Source: Nitrospira sp. (GTDB lineage: Bacteria; Nitrospirota; Nitrospiria; Nitrospirales; Nitrospiraceae). Taken from it: 64,000 bases of DNA. The DNA is taken from contig CP126123.1 of the NCBI GenBank assembly GCA_030123605.1, forward strand, positions 620,001-684,000, in the 5' to 3' direction. Under the pieces are notes generated by a model that ran no database searches, was not told the origin of the DNA, and saw nothing but the letters and a program-made list of their open reading frames with translations. This document shows, one piece after another, positions 5,890 to 23,295 of this stretch (position 1 is its first letter; every line of letters starts with the position of its first letter). The position numbers and the translations under genes are program-made.

Positions 5890-5893
<4 letters not shown>
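5186..5893 (-). CDS. DUF3800 domain protein
   Basis: This 235-residue protein has the DUF3800 hallmarks: N-terminal IYCDESC (acidic Asp-Glu-Ser motif on the first strand), a central VYIDIKDT strand with further acidic residues, and the C-terminal QLADVLIGAL segment. DUF3800 is predicted to adopt an RNase H-like fold, so a nuclease role is plausible but unproven. The family is often found in defence and mobile regions. The gene overlaps the end of hsdS by four bases (ATGA) and the next gene by four bases. It is therefore embedded in the restriction-modification operon rather than merely adjacent to it. Confidence 0.85.
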
Positions 5894-7052
<1,159 letters not shown>

Positions 7053-7053
<1 letters not shown>

Positions 7054-8663
7054 TACGTCTCCAAGATCTCCGCCACGTTGCGAGCGATCGTTTCTTCGAG
7101 TTCACGGGCCTGAGCATTCAGCTTTTCAAGTTCCTCGTTCAGCGTTTCGAGCTGTTCCTTGAAGTCCTCGTCGCTGACTTCTTCGCCTGGTGCCACACCG
7201 ACATAGCGGCCCGGATTGAGGCTCCAGCCCTGCGCTTCGATCTCCTTGATCGTGGCCGCTTTACACAGACCCGGCACGTCAGTGAACTTCAGCTTCTTAT
7301 CGAAGAATTCCTTGAGCTTGGCTTCCGCTTCTGCCCCGCCGAGGGTGAAGTCCGGTTCTTCGCCTCGATAGAGCCGCACGACGTTGGCTAAGAAGCCGAT
7401 CTGCCCTTCGGTCCAGTCGCGGTGCGCTCGATCGACCTGTCGATAGATGTGTCGCGCGTCGAGGAAGAGGACCTTGTCGGCACGTGGCGTCCGCTGCTTG
7501 CCTCGATCCAGAAACCAGAGCGTACAGGGCAATGTGACCGTGTAGAACATGTTCGGCCCGACTGCGACCATGACGTCCACCGCACGGGCTTCGATGAGTT
7601 GTTTGCGCAAGTCCTGCTCGGAAGCCCGGGCATCGGAGGCGCTGTTCGCCATGACGAATCCGGCTCGCCCGGTCGTATTCAACGTCGAATAGAAGAGCTG
7701 AATCCAGAGGTAATTCGCATTGTCCGTGCGCGGGAGGCCGAAAGGATAGCGGCGGCCTTTCCCCACCTCCGCTTCCAGCCGCTCCTTATCGACCGCGTTG
7801 ACGTTGAACGGCGGATTGGCGAGGACGAAGTCGAACTTGCCGGTGCCGTTGTGCGGATCGTCGTAGTAGGTGATGGCCTCTTTGATGTCCCCTTCGAGGC
7901 CGTGCATGGCCAGGTTCATGCGGCAGAGGGCCACGGTGGCGGCGACTTTCTCCTGTCCATGGATGGCCAGTTCAGAGGAGGGGTTCTTCTTGTGCTCCGC
8001 CACGAAGCGGGCGCTCTGGACGAACATGCCGCCGGAGCCGCAGGCCGGATCGAGAATGCGGCCATGGAACGGCTCCAACACTTCGACTAACAGCCGCACG
8101 ATGCTGGAAGGCGTGTAGAACTCGCCGCCCTTTTGGCCTTCCGTTCGGGCGAATTCGCCGAGGAAGTATTCATAGATCCGGCCGAAGGCGTCGTAACTGA
8201 TCGTGGCTGGGATTTCGGAGACGCGCTTGAGCAATTCCTTCAGCAACGTGCCGGTGAAGATTTCGTATGTCTTAGGGAGCACTCCGGCAAGTTGGGGATT
8301 GTGCTTTTCGATATCTCGCATCGCCTCGTTGATCGCCTTGCCGGCATTGGCCCCCTCCGGCAGATGCAGAAGCTTATCGAAACGGGCGTTCGGCGTGAGG
8401 TAGACCACCCCTTCAGCATGGTAGGCAGCCGGGTCGTCGACGCGAGAGCCACGACGGGATGACGTGGCGATCTTTTCCAGCCCCACCCGCACCTTGGCAA
8501 AGCGGACTTCGGCGAAGCGGAGGAAGATGAGGCCGAGCACCGGCGTGGAGTATTGGGCGGACGTCAGGCCGCTATTGGCCCGTAGCTGATCGGCGGCAGC
8601 CCAGAGACGCTTTTCGAGCGTATCCGTCGCGGCGTCTTTTTCAGAGGGAGCGATCCACTGCAT
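7053..8663 (-). CDS. hsdM: Type I restriction-modification N6-adenine methylase subunit
   Basis: HsdM transfers a methyl group from S-adenosylmethionine to adenine in the HsdS target. The likely start is ATG 8663 (protein begins [10 protein letters not shown]), because the usual HsdM N-terminal helical domain ([14 protein letters not shown]) begins there; a longer frame runs to 8732 without support. The 536-residue product has the SAM-binding motif DPACGSGG (205-212) and catalytic NPPF (283-286), with GEFYTP just before motif I. The C-terminal helices ([19 protein letters not shown]) would pair with HsdS. It is the first gene of the operon, divergent from a cyclophilin gene. Confidence 0.95.
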
Positions 8664-8703
8664 CTGGAGCCTTGTGAAATCTGTATCCGTTGCAAGCCGC
8701 AGC

Positions 8704-8732
8704 AGGATACCCTTTCTCCGGTGGCGAGACAA
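8704..8732 (-). promoter_or_regulatory. Candidate sigma-70 promoter of the hsd operon
   Basis: On the minus strand, TTGTCT (-35, 8732-8727) and TATCCT (-10, 8709-8704) are separated by 17 bases. Each matches consensus at four of six positions. The site lies about 40 bp upstream of the hsdM ATG and is the best-spaced candidate in the short divergent region. Confidence 0.45.
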
Positions 8733-10493: not shown

Positions 10494-10880
10494 GTGGTGT
10501 GGTTACGATATGTTTTCCTCGCCCGCCTGTTCGTCCTTGCCGCGGCGCTTCCTGGTTGCGACTGGGAACACCACCGGCTTATGAAGGAGCAGTATCCCTC
10601 GTACCCGGAAGGAGTCCGGCGGGCGATCGACCGAGGGAACGTCATGCGAGGCATGAACCAGGATCAGGTGTACCTCGCGCTCGGATCTCCGGTCTGCAAG
10701 AAGGAGATCGAAGATCAGGGCAGGCTGTTGCAGGTCTGGTTGTATCCTCCCATCGGCAGGGATGCCTGTATCACGGCTGATTTTCGCGTGTACTTCGAAG
10801 AAGGGACCGTCGTCACGTGGGACCGTTTCAAGAAACCGGTTCGTGATACCGACCCTCCTGGCGGCGCGCCGCAGTATTGA
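10494..10880 (+). CDS. Small lipoprotein, possibly SmpA/OmlA (BamE)-like
   Basis: This has a GTG start with a GGAAGGGACGCCC leader. The 128-residue product has a signal peptide ending in the lipobox ALPGC. The mature part contains RGMNQDQVYLALGSP, which resembles the 'G.t.eqV...lG.P' signature of SmpA/OmlA/BamE-type small outer-membrane lipoproteins, followed by a WLYPP strand and a YFEEGTVVTW strand. A role in envelope assembly is possible but unproven. It follows the SGNH hydrolase by 17 bp. Confidence 0.7.
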   Translation: MVWLRYVFLARLFVLAAALPGCDWEHHRLMKEQYPSYPEGVRRAIDRGNVMRGMNQDQVYLALGSPVCKKEIEDQGRLLQVWLYPPIGRDACITADFRVYFEEGTVVTWDRFKKPVRDTDPPGGAPQY

Positions 10881-10900
10881 AATGGTGTGAACAGTGAAAC

Positions 10901-11026
10901 GCAGGCTGCTCAAACAGGCCTCCAACGAGGCCGCAGCCGATGAAAGCGCCGGAAGCGTACCCTCGGGGGTACGGTGAGGATGGTTTCGAGGGGAGCACGA
11001 AGGTGGGGACCTGTTTCAGCGACTGC
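10901..11026. repeat. Palindromic intergenic repeat, copy 1
   Basis: This element of about 125 bp has partial outer inverted arms (GCAGGCTGCTCAAACAGG against CCTGTTTCAGCGACTGC) and an internal GAGGCCGCAGC word. It also has a central palindrome around GTACCCTCGGGGGTACGG and a GTGAGGA segment. The same skeleton recurs in the adjacent copy and in a reversed copy near 17.1 kb. It resembles REP/BIME-like non-coding repeats and contains no gene. Confidence 0.65.
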
Positions 11027-11029
11027 TCG

Positions 11030-11155
11030 GCAGGACGGTCAAAATGATTGTCCGACTAGGCCGCAGCGAGCGAAGGACCGAGGCGTACCGTTACGGTACG
11101 TTGAGGGATCTGAGCGATGCGAGAACGACGTCGGCGGTCATTTTCACCGTCCTGC
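11030..11155. repeat. Palindromic intergenic repeat, copy 2
   Basis: The outer arms GCAGGACGGTCAAAATGA and TCATTTTCACCGTCCTGC are inverted repeats matching at 17 of 18 positions. Inside are AGGCCGCAGCGAGCGAAGG and a central palindrome GTACCGTTACGGTAC. The element follows copy 1 directly and ends one base before the stop codon of the leftward Memo-like gene. It is therefore the 3' boundary of that operon and may stabilise or terminate its transcript. Confidence 0.75.
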
Positions 11156-11156
11156 C

Positions 11157-12419
11157 CTAGAAGAAGGCCATGCTGGCATAGGTGACGGTCGAATTATATT
11201 GGTCGGTGATGCCGCGGTCGTACCTCAGGACCTGCCCCGTTTCAGCTTGGATCAATCGCAGCAACGAGTAGATCGGCGAGAAACCGGAGATCCGCCGTTG
11301 ATCGTTTTCTTTTTGAATGAATTGCGCGAACTCTTCCGGAGCGCGGTTCTCCACATGCTTGAGCATTTCCAGGTCGATTTGCATGCAACGGTGGAAGGAG
11401 AAGTCGGTGGGCGGTGCCGAATCGCCGTAGCGCATGCCGATGTGGGCCAGTTCCGCCCCTGCCACGACGCAATACTGTTTTCCCGATGCGGCCAACGCCC
11501 CGTTCAGGGCCTCTAAAAACTTTTCGACCCTCTCCCGCACCTGAGGGTCTCTCAGGCTGTCCGCTGAAAAGGATGTGAGGATCGGCACGATCGTAAAGGG
11601 CCGGTCTTTGCCGAGGCTCTCCTGGAGGAAGGGCAGTTGAAATTCCAGCGCATGTTCGTGTTGATGCGCCAATTCTTCCATGAAGGCGGACGGGACCAGA
11701 GCGCGCAGGCGATCGGTGACGCTGCGTTCGACCGTAACGACCCCCAGCGGCGTTTCGAAGTCCTTGTCCGTCACCGCCACGAGTTGTTCGAGCCCTGAGT
11801 TGGCCGTCCCAATCAGCACGTAGAGGTCCGGCTGGCGGGCTTCCTGCAATTCTTTGTAAGCCCAGGCGTAGACCGGTCCGGCATGTTTCGGTTCGTAGGT
11901 CGGTGCGACGAGTGCCTTGATGGGTGTACCCGCATGTTCGGAGGCCTTGATCTCCGGGCCTTCCTTCGAGGTGAAGAAGCCCTTGATCTGGGCGCGGAGT
12001 TTGGTTGCGTCCGCTTCATAACTCCGGCCGGCGAATGCCGGGAGGCGACAGGGCGCTTGGCGGTACGATTCCAGCGCCTGACGTTTGGCCTGTTCGGTCC
12101 TCTCCCCTTCCAGGAAGAGTTTCGCATCCAGGTCGGCCAACAACTGCTCGACCTTGTTCGGCATGAGGAATTCGCCGAAACGTTTCAGGTACATCGCGCC
12201 GATGTCCTGGACCGTATGGTCCCCATCCAGGTGCTGCACGATGAAGAAGTAGCTCATCGGCAAGACCAGTTTGTCCTTGCTCAAACCGGTCGGGTCCCAG
12301 AGCACGACGTACTGCTCTTCACCTTCTTTGATCGGTGAAAATTGCAAGTTGCGCAGCAGCGGATATTGTGCCGGATCTTTGGGCGCGTTGGTCGGGGGTG
12401 AATCCATAATGAGGCGCAT
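11157..12419 (-). CDS. PqqD-like domain fused to degenerate Memo-family domain
   Basis: The 420-residue product has two parts. Residues about 50-105 (HLDGDHTVQDIGAMYLKRFG) resemble the PqqD-like winged helix. Residues about 125-420 resemble Memo / AmmeMemoRadiSam protein B. Memo metal-site landmarks are partly kept: H179 in EPKHAG, the HEHALEFQLPF block (254-264) and H326 in AELAHIG. The canonical second His (GPNH) is replaced in GTANSG (204-209, Asn at the His position), so metal binding may be lost or altered. It is the last gene of the operon that starts at 19524; no AMMECR1 or radical-SAM partner is adjacent. A second in-frame ATG at 12404 is an alternative start. Confidence 0.7.
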   Translation of the reverse strand: MRLIMDSPPTNAPKDPAQYPLLRNLQFSPIKEGEEQYVVLWDPTGLSKDKLVLPMSYFFIVQHLDGDHTVQDIGAMYLKRFGEFLMPNKVEQLLADLDAKLFLEGERTEQAKRQALESYRQAPCRLPAFAGRSYEADATKLRAQIKGFFTSKEGPEIKASEHAGTPIKALVAPTYEPKHAGPVYAWAYKELQEARQPDLYVLIGTANSGLEQLVAVTDKDFETPLGVVTVERSVTDRLRALVPSAFMEELAHQHEHALEFQLPFLQESLGKDRPFTIVPILTSFSADSLRDPQVRERVEKFLEALNGALAASGKQYCVVAGAELAHIGMRYGDSAPPTDFSFHRCMQIDLEMLKHVENRAPEEFAQFIQKENDQRRISGFSPIYSLLRLIQAETGQVLRYDRGITDQYNSTVTYASMAFF

Positions 12420-14713: not shown

Positions 14714-15969
14714 TTCAGATCCTTGAAGAGGTCCAGGATGGTCTGCGGCCAGGTTGCGCCGGTCACGACGGCGATCGTCGCCAATAGGGTTCCGATGCCG
14801 ATCACGCCGAGGATGAAGGCCTTGCCGAGGTCCTGTCCGCGCAACGTCCCGATCTGGATCGGTTCCTTCGAGAGGTAGGCGCTGGCGGCATAGAGTTCCT
14901 CGCCGATCAGGGTGTAGTCACAGGTCGTGACGAAGAACGGGAGTTGGTGGTCGGAATCGGTCCCGGCGATTTGAATCGCCCCGGTGCTGGCGCCGGTTTC
15001 CGTGAGCAGGAGCGATTCCGCGAAGTAGGAGCCCATGAAAAAATTCGCCGCCGGCTTCCGCCTGAGCATGATGCCGTCCACGGCGGCCGTGTAGCTGAAT
15101 TGATCGCTGGTGATGAAGAAATTGGCATCATCCTTGAACAGGTCCGGCTTGCCGGCTTCCAGGTAGGCCTGTTTGGTGATTTCCTGGCAGACGGCCATCG
15201 TGATGGGTTCGCGGTGCGGCACCAGCAATTCCGTTTCATAGGAGGCGGCCTTTTTGGCGACGCGACCTAAAATGATCGCTGCGGCAATCGTCGCGGGGTC
15301 GTTCATGTCGTGCGCCCCGGTCATGTAAAGGACCGGCTTGCCCAACTCCGTGGATCGCCCGATGGCTTCATCGACCGCGTCCAGACCGGGAATACGCCGC
15401 AGGAAGATCTCCTTTCGCTTGGCCAGATTGATCGCATAGAACACGACGGCGCCGAACAGCAGGGCCAGCACCAGATTGTTCAGCTGGTTCCAGTTCATCC
15501 AGTTCGGCTCAGGCGAGGCCGTGATCGGCGGAGCGATCGACCGTTCCCTGCCGTTCACGGCGGCGACGGTGACGGCGTACGACTGTCCTTGCTTCAACTC
15601 GATGCCCTTCCCGCTCTTGATGACATAAGCATGGTCGCCCGGCTGTCCCGGCCTGGTCCACCAGGCAGACTTCCCATCGCGAACGTAGTGGCTGTCGGCG
15701 GAAAATTCGGCGAGGACTTTCCACGCGGTCTGGTCTGAGGGCACGCTGCCCTCATGCAATAGGATTTGATACTTCCACGCGGCGCTGTCGCTTGCCGAGG
15801 GGGCCCAGAGAACCGTGAGGCTGCCTCCCCCATCGCTCGGGGTGTCCAAGACCTGCAGCTGTTGCGGCGGTGCAAGGGGCGCCTGTGCAAGGAGGAATTG
15901 CGGCGCGCAGGCGAGCAGCCCGGCGACAACGAGCGGCACGATACGGCGAGGAGGCTGCACGCGGCTCAT
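14710..15969 (-). CDS. DUF6754-type membrane protein with FN3-like ectodomain
   Basis: The 419-residue product has a signal peptide (ends near LLAQA). A fibronectin type III-like domain (about 35-150; strands around LTVLWAPS and SYAVTVAAVNG) follows, then a membrane helix (about 165-185). The large cytoplasmic domain begins FLRRIPGLDAVDEAIGRSTELGKP, and a C-terminal helix lies near residue 390. The cytoplasmic part matches what I recall of DUF6754, with MTGAHDMNDPATIAA and ELLVPHREPITM. Its biochemical role is unknown. It overlaps both neighbours by four bases, so it is a core member of the operon. Confidence 0.78.
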   Translation of the reverse strand: MSRVQPPRRIVPLVVAGLLACAPQFLLAQAPLAPPQQLQVLDTPSDGGGSLTVLWAPSASDSAAWKYQILLHEGSVPSDQTAWKVLAEFSADSHYVRDGKSAWWTRPGQPGDHAYVIKSGKGIELKQGQSYAVTVAAVNGRERSIAPPITASPEPNWMNWNQLNNLVLALLFGAVVFYAINLAKRKEIFLRRIPGLDAVDEAIGRSTELGKPVLYMTGAHDMNDPATIAAAIILGRVAKKAASYETELLVPHREPITMAVCQEITKQAYLEAGKPDLFKDDANFFITSDQFSYTAAVDGIMLRRKPAANFFMGSYFAESLLLTETGASTGAIQIAGTDSDHQLPFFVTTCDYTLIGEELYAASAYLSKEPIQIGTLRGQDLGKAFILGVIGIGTLLATIAVVTGATWPQTILDLFKDLK

Positions 15970-17093
15970 GCTCCTTCGATCACTTCGATGTTGGCCCTGG
16001 GAACCACGGTGCTCGTGCCGTCCGGAAACCGGACTTCAAGTACCCGGACCTCACTCTCCGTCGGGATCATCCTCAGTTCAGACGGCAAGCCGGATACCGC
16101 ACCGATCTTGCCGAACAGCGGATCCCGGATGATCCGCACCGGATCGCCGAGTTGAATGCCCTCCCGTTCGACCAGGCTCACCCGCGCTCCGGAGGAAGGG
16201 GATGTCTGTGGAATGATGATTTCCGGCCTGATGACGCCGGCCCGGATTTGCGTCGCGCCTGAAATAGAAGCCTTCTGTCCCGCATGGGCGGACAGGAGCG
16301 CGAAGGTTTTTGGAGCCATCGGGATCGTGCCGAATCCCTCCGTCAGGATCAACGTGAAGCCGACCTGTTCCGTACCGGTGATGGCGACGCCGAGGTCATA
16401 CCCGAGGAGGGCCCGCAGGTCCTTGTCGTGGATGCCGCCGACCACGAGGCCGATCACCCCGATCTCCTTGGCGCGCGTCATGGCGGCGGCGGGAAGAAAC
16501 GAGCCCCCGATCACGATTTTGCCCTTCATGGACGGAATGAGCCGCTCCGGGAGCAACGGTTGGTCCGGTGCCGTCACGCCGACGACCAGTTCGCCGTCGG
16601 TCTCCCCGCCGATGCCGAAAATGCCCTGCACCAGACTGCAGGTCGTTTCGACCGTCACGCCTTGTTCGGGATGCACCTCGGCGATCGTGCCGTCGATGTA
16701 GCCTCGCAATTCGAGCACCCGCGGCGGTTCCCGCAATAGGACCTGTCCGGTAATCGTTGAAATCGATTCGACGGTGCCGCCGACAGGTGAACGGATTTCC
16801 GTCTTGAACCATGAGATGAAGGGTTTGTTCTCGGCCAAGACCTCGTCTTTTTGAACCGACTCCTTTTCTTTCTTCACCAGGTAGTCGTTGATTTCATCCG
16901 GTGCGATACCGAGCTGATTCGCGAGGTTGAGCGGAACGACCTTGCCGGGCAATTCGGCCCGGGCGACGGTCGTATCGGCATGTATCGCCTCGCCGACCTT
17001 CACCAACACCGTTCCCGGGAGAGGCAAGATGCGTTTGCGACGGACGGTGGTCCGTTCCGTGACGGTCAGTCCTGGTGTGTACGAATGCGCCAT
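15966..17093 (-). CDS. Barrel-sandwich (biotinyl/lipoyl-like) and KOW-like protein
   Basis: This 375-residue soluble protein is of unrecognised family. The N-terminal half has two barrel-sandwich-like segments (GTVLVKVGEAIHADTTVAR and SPVGGTVESISTITGQVLL) like those in RnfC or biotinyl-lipoyl domains, but no lysine carrier motif. The C-terminus (LGDPVRIIRDPLFGKIGAV) looks like a KOW/SH3 barrel. A Gly-rich middle (GKIVIGGSFLPAAAMTRAKEIGVIGLVVGG) could bind a ligand. The start ATG sits 3 bp from a palindromic repeat and no Shine-Dalgarno is visible. The gene overlaps the DUF6754 gene by four bases. Confidence 0.72.
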   Translation of the reverse strand: MAHSYTPGLTVTERTTVRRKRILPLPGTVLVKVGEAIHADTTVARAELPGKVVPLNLANQLGIAPDEINDYLVKKEKESVQKDEVLAENKPFISWFKTEIRSPVGGTVESISTITGQVLLREPPRVLELRGYIDGTIAEVHPEQGVTVETTCSLVQGIFGIGGETDGELVVGVTAPDQPLLPERLIPSMKGKIVIGGSFLPAAAMTRAKEIGVIGLVVGGIHDKDLRALLGYDLGVAITGTEQVGFTLILTEGFGTIPMAPKTFALLSAHAGQKASISGATQIRAGVIRPEIIIPQTSPSSGARVSLVEREGIQLGDPVRIIRDPLFGKIGAVSGLPSELRMIPTESEVRVLEVRFPDGTSTVVPRANIEVIEGA

Positions 17094-17096
17094 AAC

Positions 17097-17216
17097 GGTT
17101 GCTGAAAACGCCCTACAGCTTCGTTCTCAGTTGCTCGCTCCTCTCATCGTACAACCCAGAGTACGACTCGGGACCCTCGCGCCTTGCGGCCTCTCTGCCG
17201 GACGTTTTGAGCAACC
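17097..17216. repeat. Palindromic intergenic repeat, copy 3 (reverse orientation)
   Basis: The outer arms GGTTGCTGAAAACGC and ACGTTTTGAGCAACC match at 13 of 15 positions as inverted repeats. A central CGTACAACCCAGAGTACG palindrome and a TTGCGGCCTC word correspond, in reverse, to copies 1 and 2 near 11 kb. It lies between the GlmL-like ATPase gene and the barrel protein gene, three bases before the latter's ATG. Confidence 0.65.
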
Positions 17217-17238
17217 TTGTGAACCGGTTCTGAATCAT

Positions 17239-22458: not shown

Positions 22459-23295
22459 TCATCCCGTTCGTTGTTCGGCTTGCTTGATCCACCGACTCAC
22501 CGTGGCATAGTGCACCCCGAAATGGGCGGCGATCTCGGTCAGGCGATACCCATGGCGGCGTGTCGCAGCGAGGAGACGAGTAGACGTTCGTTTCCCTTCC
22601 GGAAACAAGTGAGCGAGGGAGGGGCGTTGCGCCTGCGTCTGTCGGCGGGGCACCTCTGCGATCAGCCGATCCGGCTGGTGGCGTGCGACGAAGGCTTCTG
22701 ACCCCAAATAGATCTGTCCCCGTACCTGCTCCCAGGGCCTCGGTCCTTCTCGCCCCTCGGTTACGAATTGTCGGTAACGAGCCTGCGCCGATGACACCCG
22801 GCGGCCGAACTGTGCCCAAATCCAGTCTGTCGCCAGGAACGGAGGACAGTCTGTGTCTCCGGCCGTGGCCCGGTAGCTGCTCCAGGCCCAGCGATGGGGC
22901 TGTGTGACCACCTTCGCCCGAACCGGGTTGAGGACCACATAGCGGCACAACTCCAACAGATGTGCGTCCTTCTCCACGAGGATGGCGTGGTACCGGCCCT
23001 GGAAGAGATGGCCGACCAAGTGATGCCGGCGATTGAAGGCTTGGGTATAGACGCCGTTGAGGTGCCTCATGCCGCGAGCCAGATTGGGCTGTGGTGTTTC
23101 CAGGAGCAGATGGTAGTGGTTGTCCATCAGGCAATAGGCATAGAGTCGCCATCCGAAACGCGCGACGGCCTGAGCAAGGACCGCCACCCAGCTGGTCCGG
23201 TCGGCTGCATCGGCCACGACGGCCTGCCGTGCATTCCCGCGACTGGTGACATGATAGAGGGCGCCGGGAAATTCGAGCCTCAGAGGACGTGCCAT
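22459..23295 (-). mobile_element. REP-associated tyrosine transposase (RAYT)
   Basis: This 278-residue Y1-type transposase belongs to the IS200/IS605-related TnpA-REP group, single-copy enzymes thought to disperse palindromic REP sequences. The N-terminus MARPLRLEFPGALYHVTSRG and the HUH motif in MDNHYHLLLE (H60-x-H62) are diagnostic. GHLFQGRYHAILVEKD and the NPVRA segment are also typical. The C-terminal end (RLTEIAAHFGVHYATVSRWI) is a helix-turn-helix of the kind seen in long RAYTs. The gene is intact. Three palindromic repeats elsewhere in the window are possible substrates. Confidence 0.92.

Follow-up and report, generated by a model that had tools for sequence, protein, structure and literature searches.

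Members of the REP/BIME/REPIN class carry a REP-type tetranucleotide and a short REP hairpin at each end. According to the passages of PMC3116915 drawn on here, REPINs form long hairpins with compensatory changes and lie outside genes, in tandem clusters, and the Nitrospira repeats described in this study resemble REPINs and REP/BIMEs in these respects. Bacterial MITEs offer a second set of comparisons. ERIC (IRU), a 127-bp enterobacterial MITE, is described in the relevant sections of its literature as palindromic, intergenic and present in dozens of copies, again like the Nitrospira family, whose length it also approximates (about 127 bp); at the 3′ end of Yersinia genes it affects transcript levels (PMC10969869, PMC2229807). 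Its termini are listed with TA (PMC2229807, Table 1), in contrast to the 4-bp YTAR-type duplication of the Nitrospira family, and when one unit of that family (11030–11155), not a profile, was run by blastn against 20,395 E. coli records, nothing matched at E ≤ 0.01. Correia/NEMIS and RUP elements are likewise MITEs with IS-like ends; in the excerpts used, RUP ends are stated to match IS630-Spn1 (PMC2229807) and Correia hairpins in mRNA to be cut by RNase III (PMC10969869). By description they differ from the Nitrospira family in their TA targets and in the organisms that carry them. MITEPsy1 of Pseudomonas syringae differs in being 100 nt long and present in few copies, and the part of its description consulted makes no mention of a conserved core common to another MITE family. 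Closest in their ends and in their kind of 4-bp target are IS5-family (NF033581) and IS1182-type elements, with which the two Nitrospira MITE families agree in both features, although the MITEs lack a transposase.

The window, by which we mean the whole stretch of 64,000 nucleotides analysed, comprises bases 620001–684000 of a single-contig Nitrospira genome of 4,316,411 bases. An earlier note on this sequence had pointed to two adjacent elements with a common skeleton, the second ending one base from a stop codon, and both are present as described. Two 126-nt palindromic units are arranged head to tail on the plus strand. The first (10901–11026) has type II arms (GCAGGCTGCTCAAACAGG) and matches our covariance model R1 with 84.9 bits (E = 1.2e-14 in the genome), and the second (11030–11155) has type I arms (GCAGGACGGTCAAAATGA) and matches with 123.4 bits (E = 4.7e-23). 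Each contains the direct repeats TCCRACKAGGCCGCAGC (at 10921 and 11051), GARGCGTACC (at 10952 and 11080) and GGTACGKTGAGG (at 10968 and 11095), the spacing being nearly alike in both. The inverted arms of the second unit extend over 19 nt (11029–11047 with 11138–11156) and are 95% complementary; those of the first unit extend over 17 nt (10908–10924 with 11004–11020, 82%). The second unit ends at 11155, facing a minus-strand gene at 11157–12419 that encodes a Memo-like/AmmeMemoRadiSam system protein B (PF01875, E = 1.1e-39; TIGR04336, 116.3 bits against a cut-off of 26). Proteins closely related to it that carry an organism name are almost all labelled Nitrospira. The TAG stop codon of this Memo gene (11157–11159, minus strand) is recorded as the first two bases of CTAG reading TAG. 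On the other side, a plus-strand open frame of 128 codons (10494–10880), for which we found no family match, ends 20 bases before the first unit. A third, diverged copy lies on the minus strand at 17094–17219 (R1, 86.1 bits, E = 6.6e-15; also detected with nhmmer) and adjoins the start of the minus-strand gene at 15966–17093. Elsewhere in the window, adjacent minus-strand frames at 5890–8732 are what we take, by eye, to resemble type I restriction specificity and methylation subunits.

The pair belongs to a large family. A blastn search with both units returned 43 matches genome-wide at E ≤ 10, and 40 of these lie away from the pair. R1 was built from an alignment of 28 full copies, and in a genome scan that scored 150 of 2121 first-look candidates it gave at least 58 matches at E ≤ 1e-4, corresponding to at least 57 places since one match is the opposite strand of another. 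The set of copies from this genome used below numbers 60 (62 matches minus the opposite-strand duplicates L061 and L071); three of these (L107 and the long forms L108 and L110) fall outside the 57 places, and four (L100, L101, L104 and L107) have other ends. Long forms of 191–238 nt, whose units carry additional apical sequence (L108, L110, L072:2001-2191 and L258), and short forms of 67 nt that lack the middle (L105 and L106) were also observed. Within the order, 40 of 41 genomes, from four families, contain an R1 match at E ≤ 1e-4, and 25 genomes of the genus have between 2 and at least 85 matches each, at most 85 being scored. The lowest figure is that of the complete genome G004, which has 2 matches compared with 29 to at least 85 in its congeners and provides a natural low-copy comparison. 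Of 245 genomes sampled from the phylum, 99 gave a match at E ≤ 1e-6, including 61 of the 62 same-family genomes among those listed. Plasmids searched with one unit gave no match. Rfam yielded no match at the gathering score in the window, and the matches within 10800–11250 were at chance level (E 0.71–8.9). The literature on Nitrospira repeats, MITEs and insertion sequences, as covered by our search with few subscription journals, contained no description of the family.

The pairing of the hairpin is preserved across the family. RNA folding gave z values on the plus strand of −6.17 for 11030–11155 and −2.51 for 10901–11027, and on the minus strand of −1.95 for the first unit and −5.01 for the second. 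Among the 28 aligned copies from this genome, two-sided changes that keep the pair occur in 31 of the 42 predicted pairs, and the covariation score is 0.391, compared with 0.171 after shuffling and no more than 0.081 when the partner was slid. For 95 further matches from contigs of other genomes, in an alignment fitted to the model, the corresponding scores are 0.364 and 0.156. Compensatory changes were also seen at single orthologous sites, in 9 of 41 and 12 of 43 pairs. Unpaired features are likewise constant: a C/C mismatch is retained in 25 of 28 copies, GA stands opposite GA in 27 of 28 (the count being based on the central two bases of either side) and the internal-loop bases are nearly invariant across the aligned copies. 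When G-T and A-C combinations were counted on the structure predicted for the plus strand, the numbers were 21 and 7 (outer stem), 52 and 23 (middle) and 37 and 0 (apical) in alignment A1, and 64 and 57, 124 and 94, and 137 and 9, respectively, in alignment A3, with no clear strand preference outside the apical stem. These results bear out the proposal of the earlier note that structure is conserved over sequence. It had recommended a covariance model and a genome scan as a check, and had named the absence of further copies and of covariation as the outcome that would speak against a family; this outcome did not occur.

Many copies have an outer left end, CAGGNTGNNGAAAAA, which precedes the unit of 125–126 nt by about 76 nt. 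The complete form of the element is thus approximately 200 bp long: between this left end and the 126-nt hairpin lies a variable left part, about 60 nt in length, and the right end of the hairpin is the second terminal repeat. The left end is kept, within three mismatches, in 54 of the 104 copies examined (the 60 from this genome and 44 from stretches of G013, G018 and G023), 18 of the 54 being from this genome. Complete copies are bordered by CTAG, TTAG, CTAA, CTAT or CTAC; in 39 of the 54 the same 4-mer stands on both sides (2000 shuffles gave 19.4 on average and never more than 27), and the other 15 have unlike 4-mers. The empty site of one copy from this genome is a single CTAG both in G001 (92% identity, joined 248 nt) and in L288, which marks a clean insertion at a stop codon. 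In G013 and G023, near-identical copies are found between unrelated flanks, and the recent copies seen are complete MITEs. The element inserts at CTAG/TTAG/CTAA-type sites and duplicates them. Neither window unit has a left end, and on reading the flanks no target duplication is visible for the first unit or for the pair, so that the MITE origin of the pair rests on its relatives.

The ends of the complete element are those of autonomous IS5-family elements in related genomes. One such element, of 1316 bp, lies in N. defluvii between TTAG/TTAG; its ends match and it encodes an IS5-family transposase (NF033581, 278.9 bits against a cut-off of 140), and the 18-nt ends of several copies are 100% identical to those of this element. 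The element ends are matched by those of L148, L280 and L283. Autonomous elements with matching ends range from 1316 to 1379 bp and are bordered by TTAG/TTAG, CTAG/CTAG (two), ATAG/ATAG, CTAA/CTAG and CTAA/CTAA, YTAR being the label for IS5 targets. Two close relatives of the N. defluvii element, both with CTAG/CTAG, and two more distant ones are found in G001, and one is found in G014. Inward of the first 18 nt, the first family shows no match to the IS among the matches listed. A search of 25 genomes located the transposase in three, one of which has it broken; this genome yielded no close copy of the autonomous IS5-family partner. The autonomous transposase may mobilize the MITE. Two other end pairs were rejected as IS candidates, 3097635/3099768 because the genes appear ordinary by eye, and G013:C158:50582/52350 because it contains, by eye, a dehydrogenase-like gene and no transposase.

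The placement of the second window unit at a stop codon is common in the family. When positions relative to stops were counted, as the earlier note had advised, the right end was within −4 to +1 nt of the stop of a facing frame in 30 of the 60 copies from this genome (20 TAG, 8 TGA and 2 TAA), against 301 of 20000 random positions (1.5%), whereas the left end of the unit was so placed in only 3 of 60. Counts were made on plain open frames of at least 90 codons; the crude gene caller had missed genes such as 10494–10880. Copies without a left end make up 42 of the 60, and 24 of these 42 have the right end at a stop codon. By the crude gene calls, many copies precede the start of a gene or fall between two genes that run in the same direction. 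In eight copies a frame ends at a TGA located 12 nt inside the right end, six of which already have the right-end stop. Since a CTAG-type target can contain a stop codon, its duplication restores that codon, and neither the gene nor its stop is disrupted. Memo orthologues with an element behind them use TAG, TAA or TGA, indicating that the stop can drift after insertion.

Many Nitrospirales have the site behind the Memo stop filled, even at 56–58% protein identity (for example L207, L209 and L212–L215); depending on the species it holds differing unit types, arrays, quite other inserts or nothing. Such varied content is explained more readily by repeated insertions into a preferred target than by simple vertical descent. 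Across L153–L231, arrays of type I and type II units vary in order and number between species. In L174, L175, L181 and L194, another palindromic insert lies directly behind the Memo stop; its outer arms are similar and its middle is different (GCTCGCGCAACGCGCGG ... CGTTGGACGCGCGCA), giving another core between like ends. Just upstream of Memo, at a position where this genome has no copy, L156 and L157 keep the left end and L158 and L163 have only the 126-nt unit, with an identical right junction. The left part has been lost after insertion at this neighbouring site while the 126-nt hairpin stays, and the same probably applies in general. Moreover, in the 18 complete copies from this genome, mean pairwise identity is 39.5% for the left part without its end and 76.7% for the unit without its outer 18 nt, which identifies the hairpin as the conserved part. 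Symmetrical insertion followed by decay does not obviously yield the bias of right ends towards stops among the 42 copies without a left end.

The most unexpected result is that a core of about 75 nt is common to two MITE families, one with IS5-type and the other with IS1182-type ends. Three elements of about 190 bp in this genome have ends quite different from those of the first family (CTAG followed by GAGCCTGTCCGACATTG) and contain a stretch that is 74–83% identical to the first-family unit from about position 26 to 103–110 (best E = 4.65e-15, blastn, scaled to genome size). The R1 genome search also picks up these three elements and aligns their core. Their ends are the ends of a 1.6-kb element of this genome (L316, G000:C1:3269500-3271700) with an interrupted frame that is most like IS1182 transposases, a label given by best match since its score of 232 bits is below the cut-off of 270. 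L316 may be the partner of the second MITE family and may have ceased to be active. The core boundaries derive from blastn of the second-family elements against other copies of this genome; by counting from unit positions 26–103, the core would occupy about 10926–11003 in the first window unit and 11055–11132 in the second, both on the plus strand. A third kind of end (TAACCCGCATTATTCA-like) is found alongside core-like sequence in L102, L107 and L203; its start in L203 coincides with the Memo stop codon, and L102 looks chimeric, with a third-kind left end and the right end of the first family. Tentatively, the core could be a portable module, a Nitrospirales-wide selected structure that has been joined to unrelated ends at CTAG-type stop sites and, as an end-switching passenger, become domesticated at 3′ ends.

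The REP/BIME-like family suggested in the earlier note stands as far as genome-wide intergenic palindromes, conserved above all in pairing and often placed at stops, are concerned; the identification with REP/BIME does not. Movement by a RAYT (Y1 transposase), as in a REP/BIME or REPIN family, would account for the long imperfect hairpins, the compensatory changes, the tandem clusters and the extragenic location, as in REPINs (in the portion of PMC3116915 used), and the genome does have two Y1/IS200-like transposase genes (Y1_Tnp) of REP-associated type, one in the window (22459–23295, minus strand; 78 bits to REP-associated tyrosine transposases, cut-off 80) and one at G000:C1:364961-365284. 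REPINs adjoin RAYT genes, however, and there is no R1 match in the stretches examined around either Y1_Tnp gene, while the terminal repeats of IS5 type and the 4-bp target duplications of the complete copies are the anatomy of a MITE. We therefore rejected RAYT movement, which appears highly improbable; the repeats served by the two Y1 genes are not those studied here. It is also improbable that the units are intrinsic (bidirectional) transcription terminators amplified between convergent genes. Their position behind stop codons and the A-runs and T-runs that flank the GC-rich middle stem in many copies would suit terminators, but a simple scan of 10800–11260 detected no terminator-like site, the T-runs are broken in many copies in which pairing is kept, and by the crude gene calls many copies precede gene starts or fall within co-directional pairs.

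Matching changes in both arms could also arise by mutational upkeep in the absence of selection, template switching or gene conversion keeping the two palindrome arms alike. Quasi-palindrome correction of this sort is known and would give this pattern, yet it should also erase fixed mismatches, and the persistence of the C/C and GA/GA positions and of the nearly invariant loop bases makes such upkeep very unlikely as the explanation. We regard as unlikely, though deserving more weight, a structured element (a vertically inherited 3′-end RNA or DNA motif) that is primary and was captured later by MITEs, the ends being secondary. The occupation of the Memo site at distant protein identities, the occurrence of the core with two kinds of ends and the excess of copies without a left end over complete ones (42 to 18) are all in keeping with such a motif. 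Against it, the Memo site differs in content from species to species, and the near-identical, recent copies are complete MITEs.

Overall, we consider it probable that the pair represents two old copies of a Nitrospira MITE family with a conserved fold, leaving aside any role in the transcript. The element would insert at a CTAG/TTAG/CTAA-type site containing a stop codon, the gene and its stop surviving; after insertion the left part would decay and the 126-nt hairpin remain. The hairpin may be kept because it is active when folded, and of the forms that this activity might take we favour, with less than even confidence, a stable RNA stem at transcript 3′ ends. Such a stem might alter processing or stability rather than act as an intrinsic terminator. 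A role of this kind has precedent in the effects of ERIC and Correia elements on mRNA, as summarized in the section of PMC10969869 drawn on here. An effect on the transcript would help the element to persist, and would explain the reuse of the core in the second MITE family.

A MITE origin accounts for a large class of Nitrospira intergenic repeats, present in dozens of copies per genome and in nearly all members of the genus tested. Nitrospira are important nitrite oxidizers. Two features are unusual for MITEs, namely the use of the stop codon itself as a target, which makes insertion harmless to the gene, and the presence of one structured core in two families with different ends. Should the hairpin act at the transcript level, a mobile 3′ element would form the end of many genes in Nitrospira.
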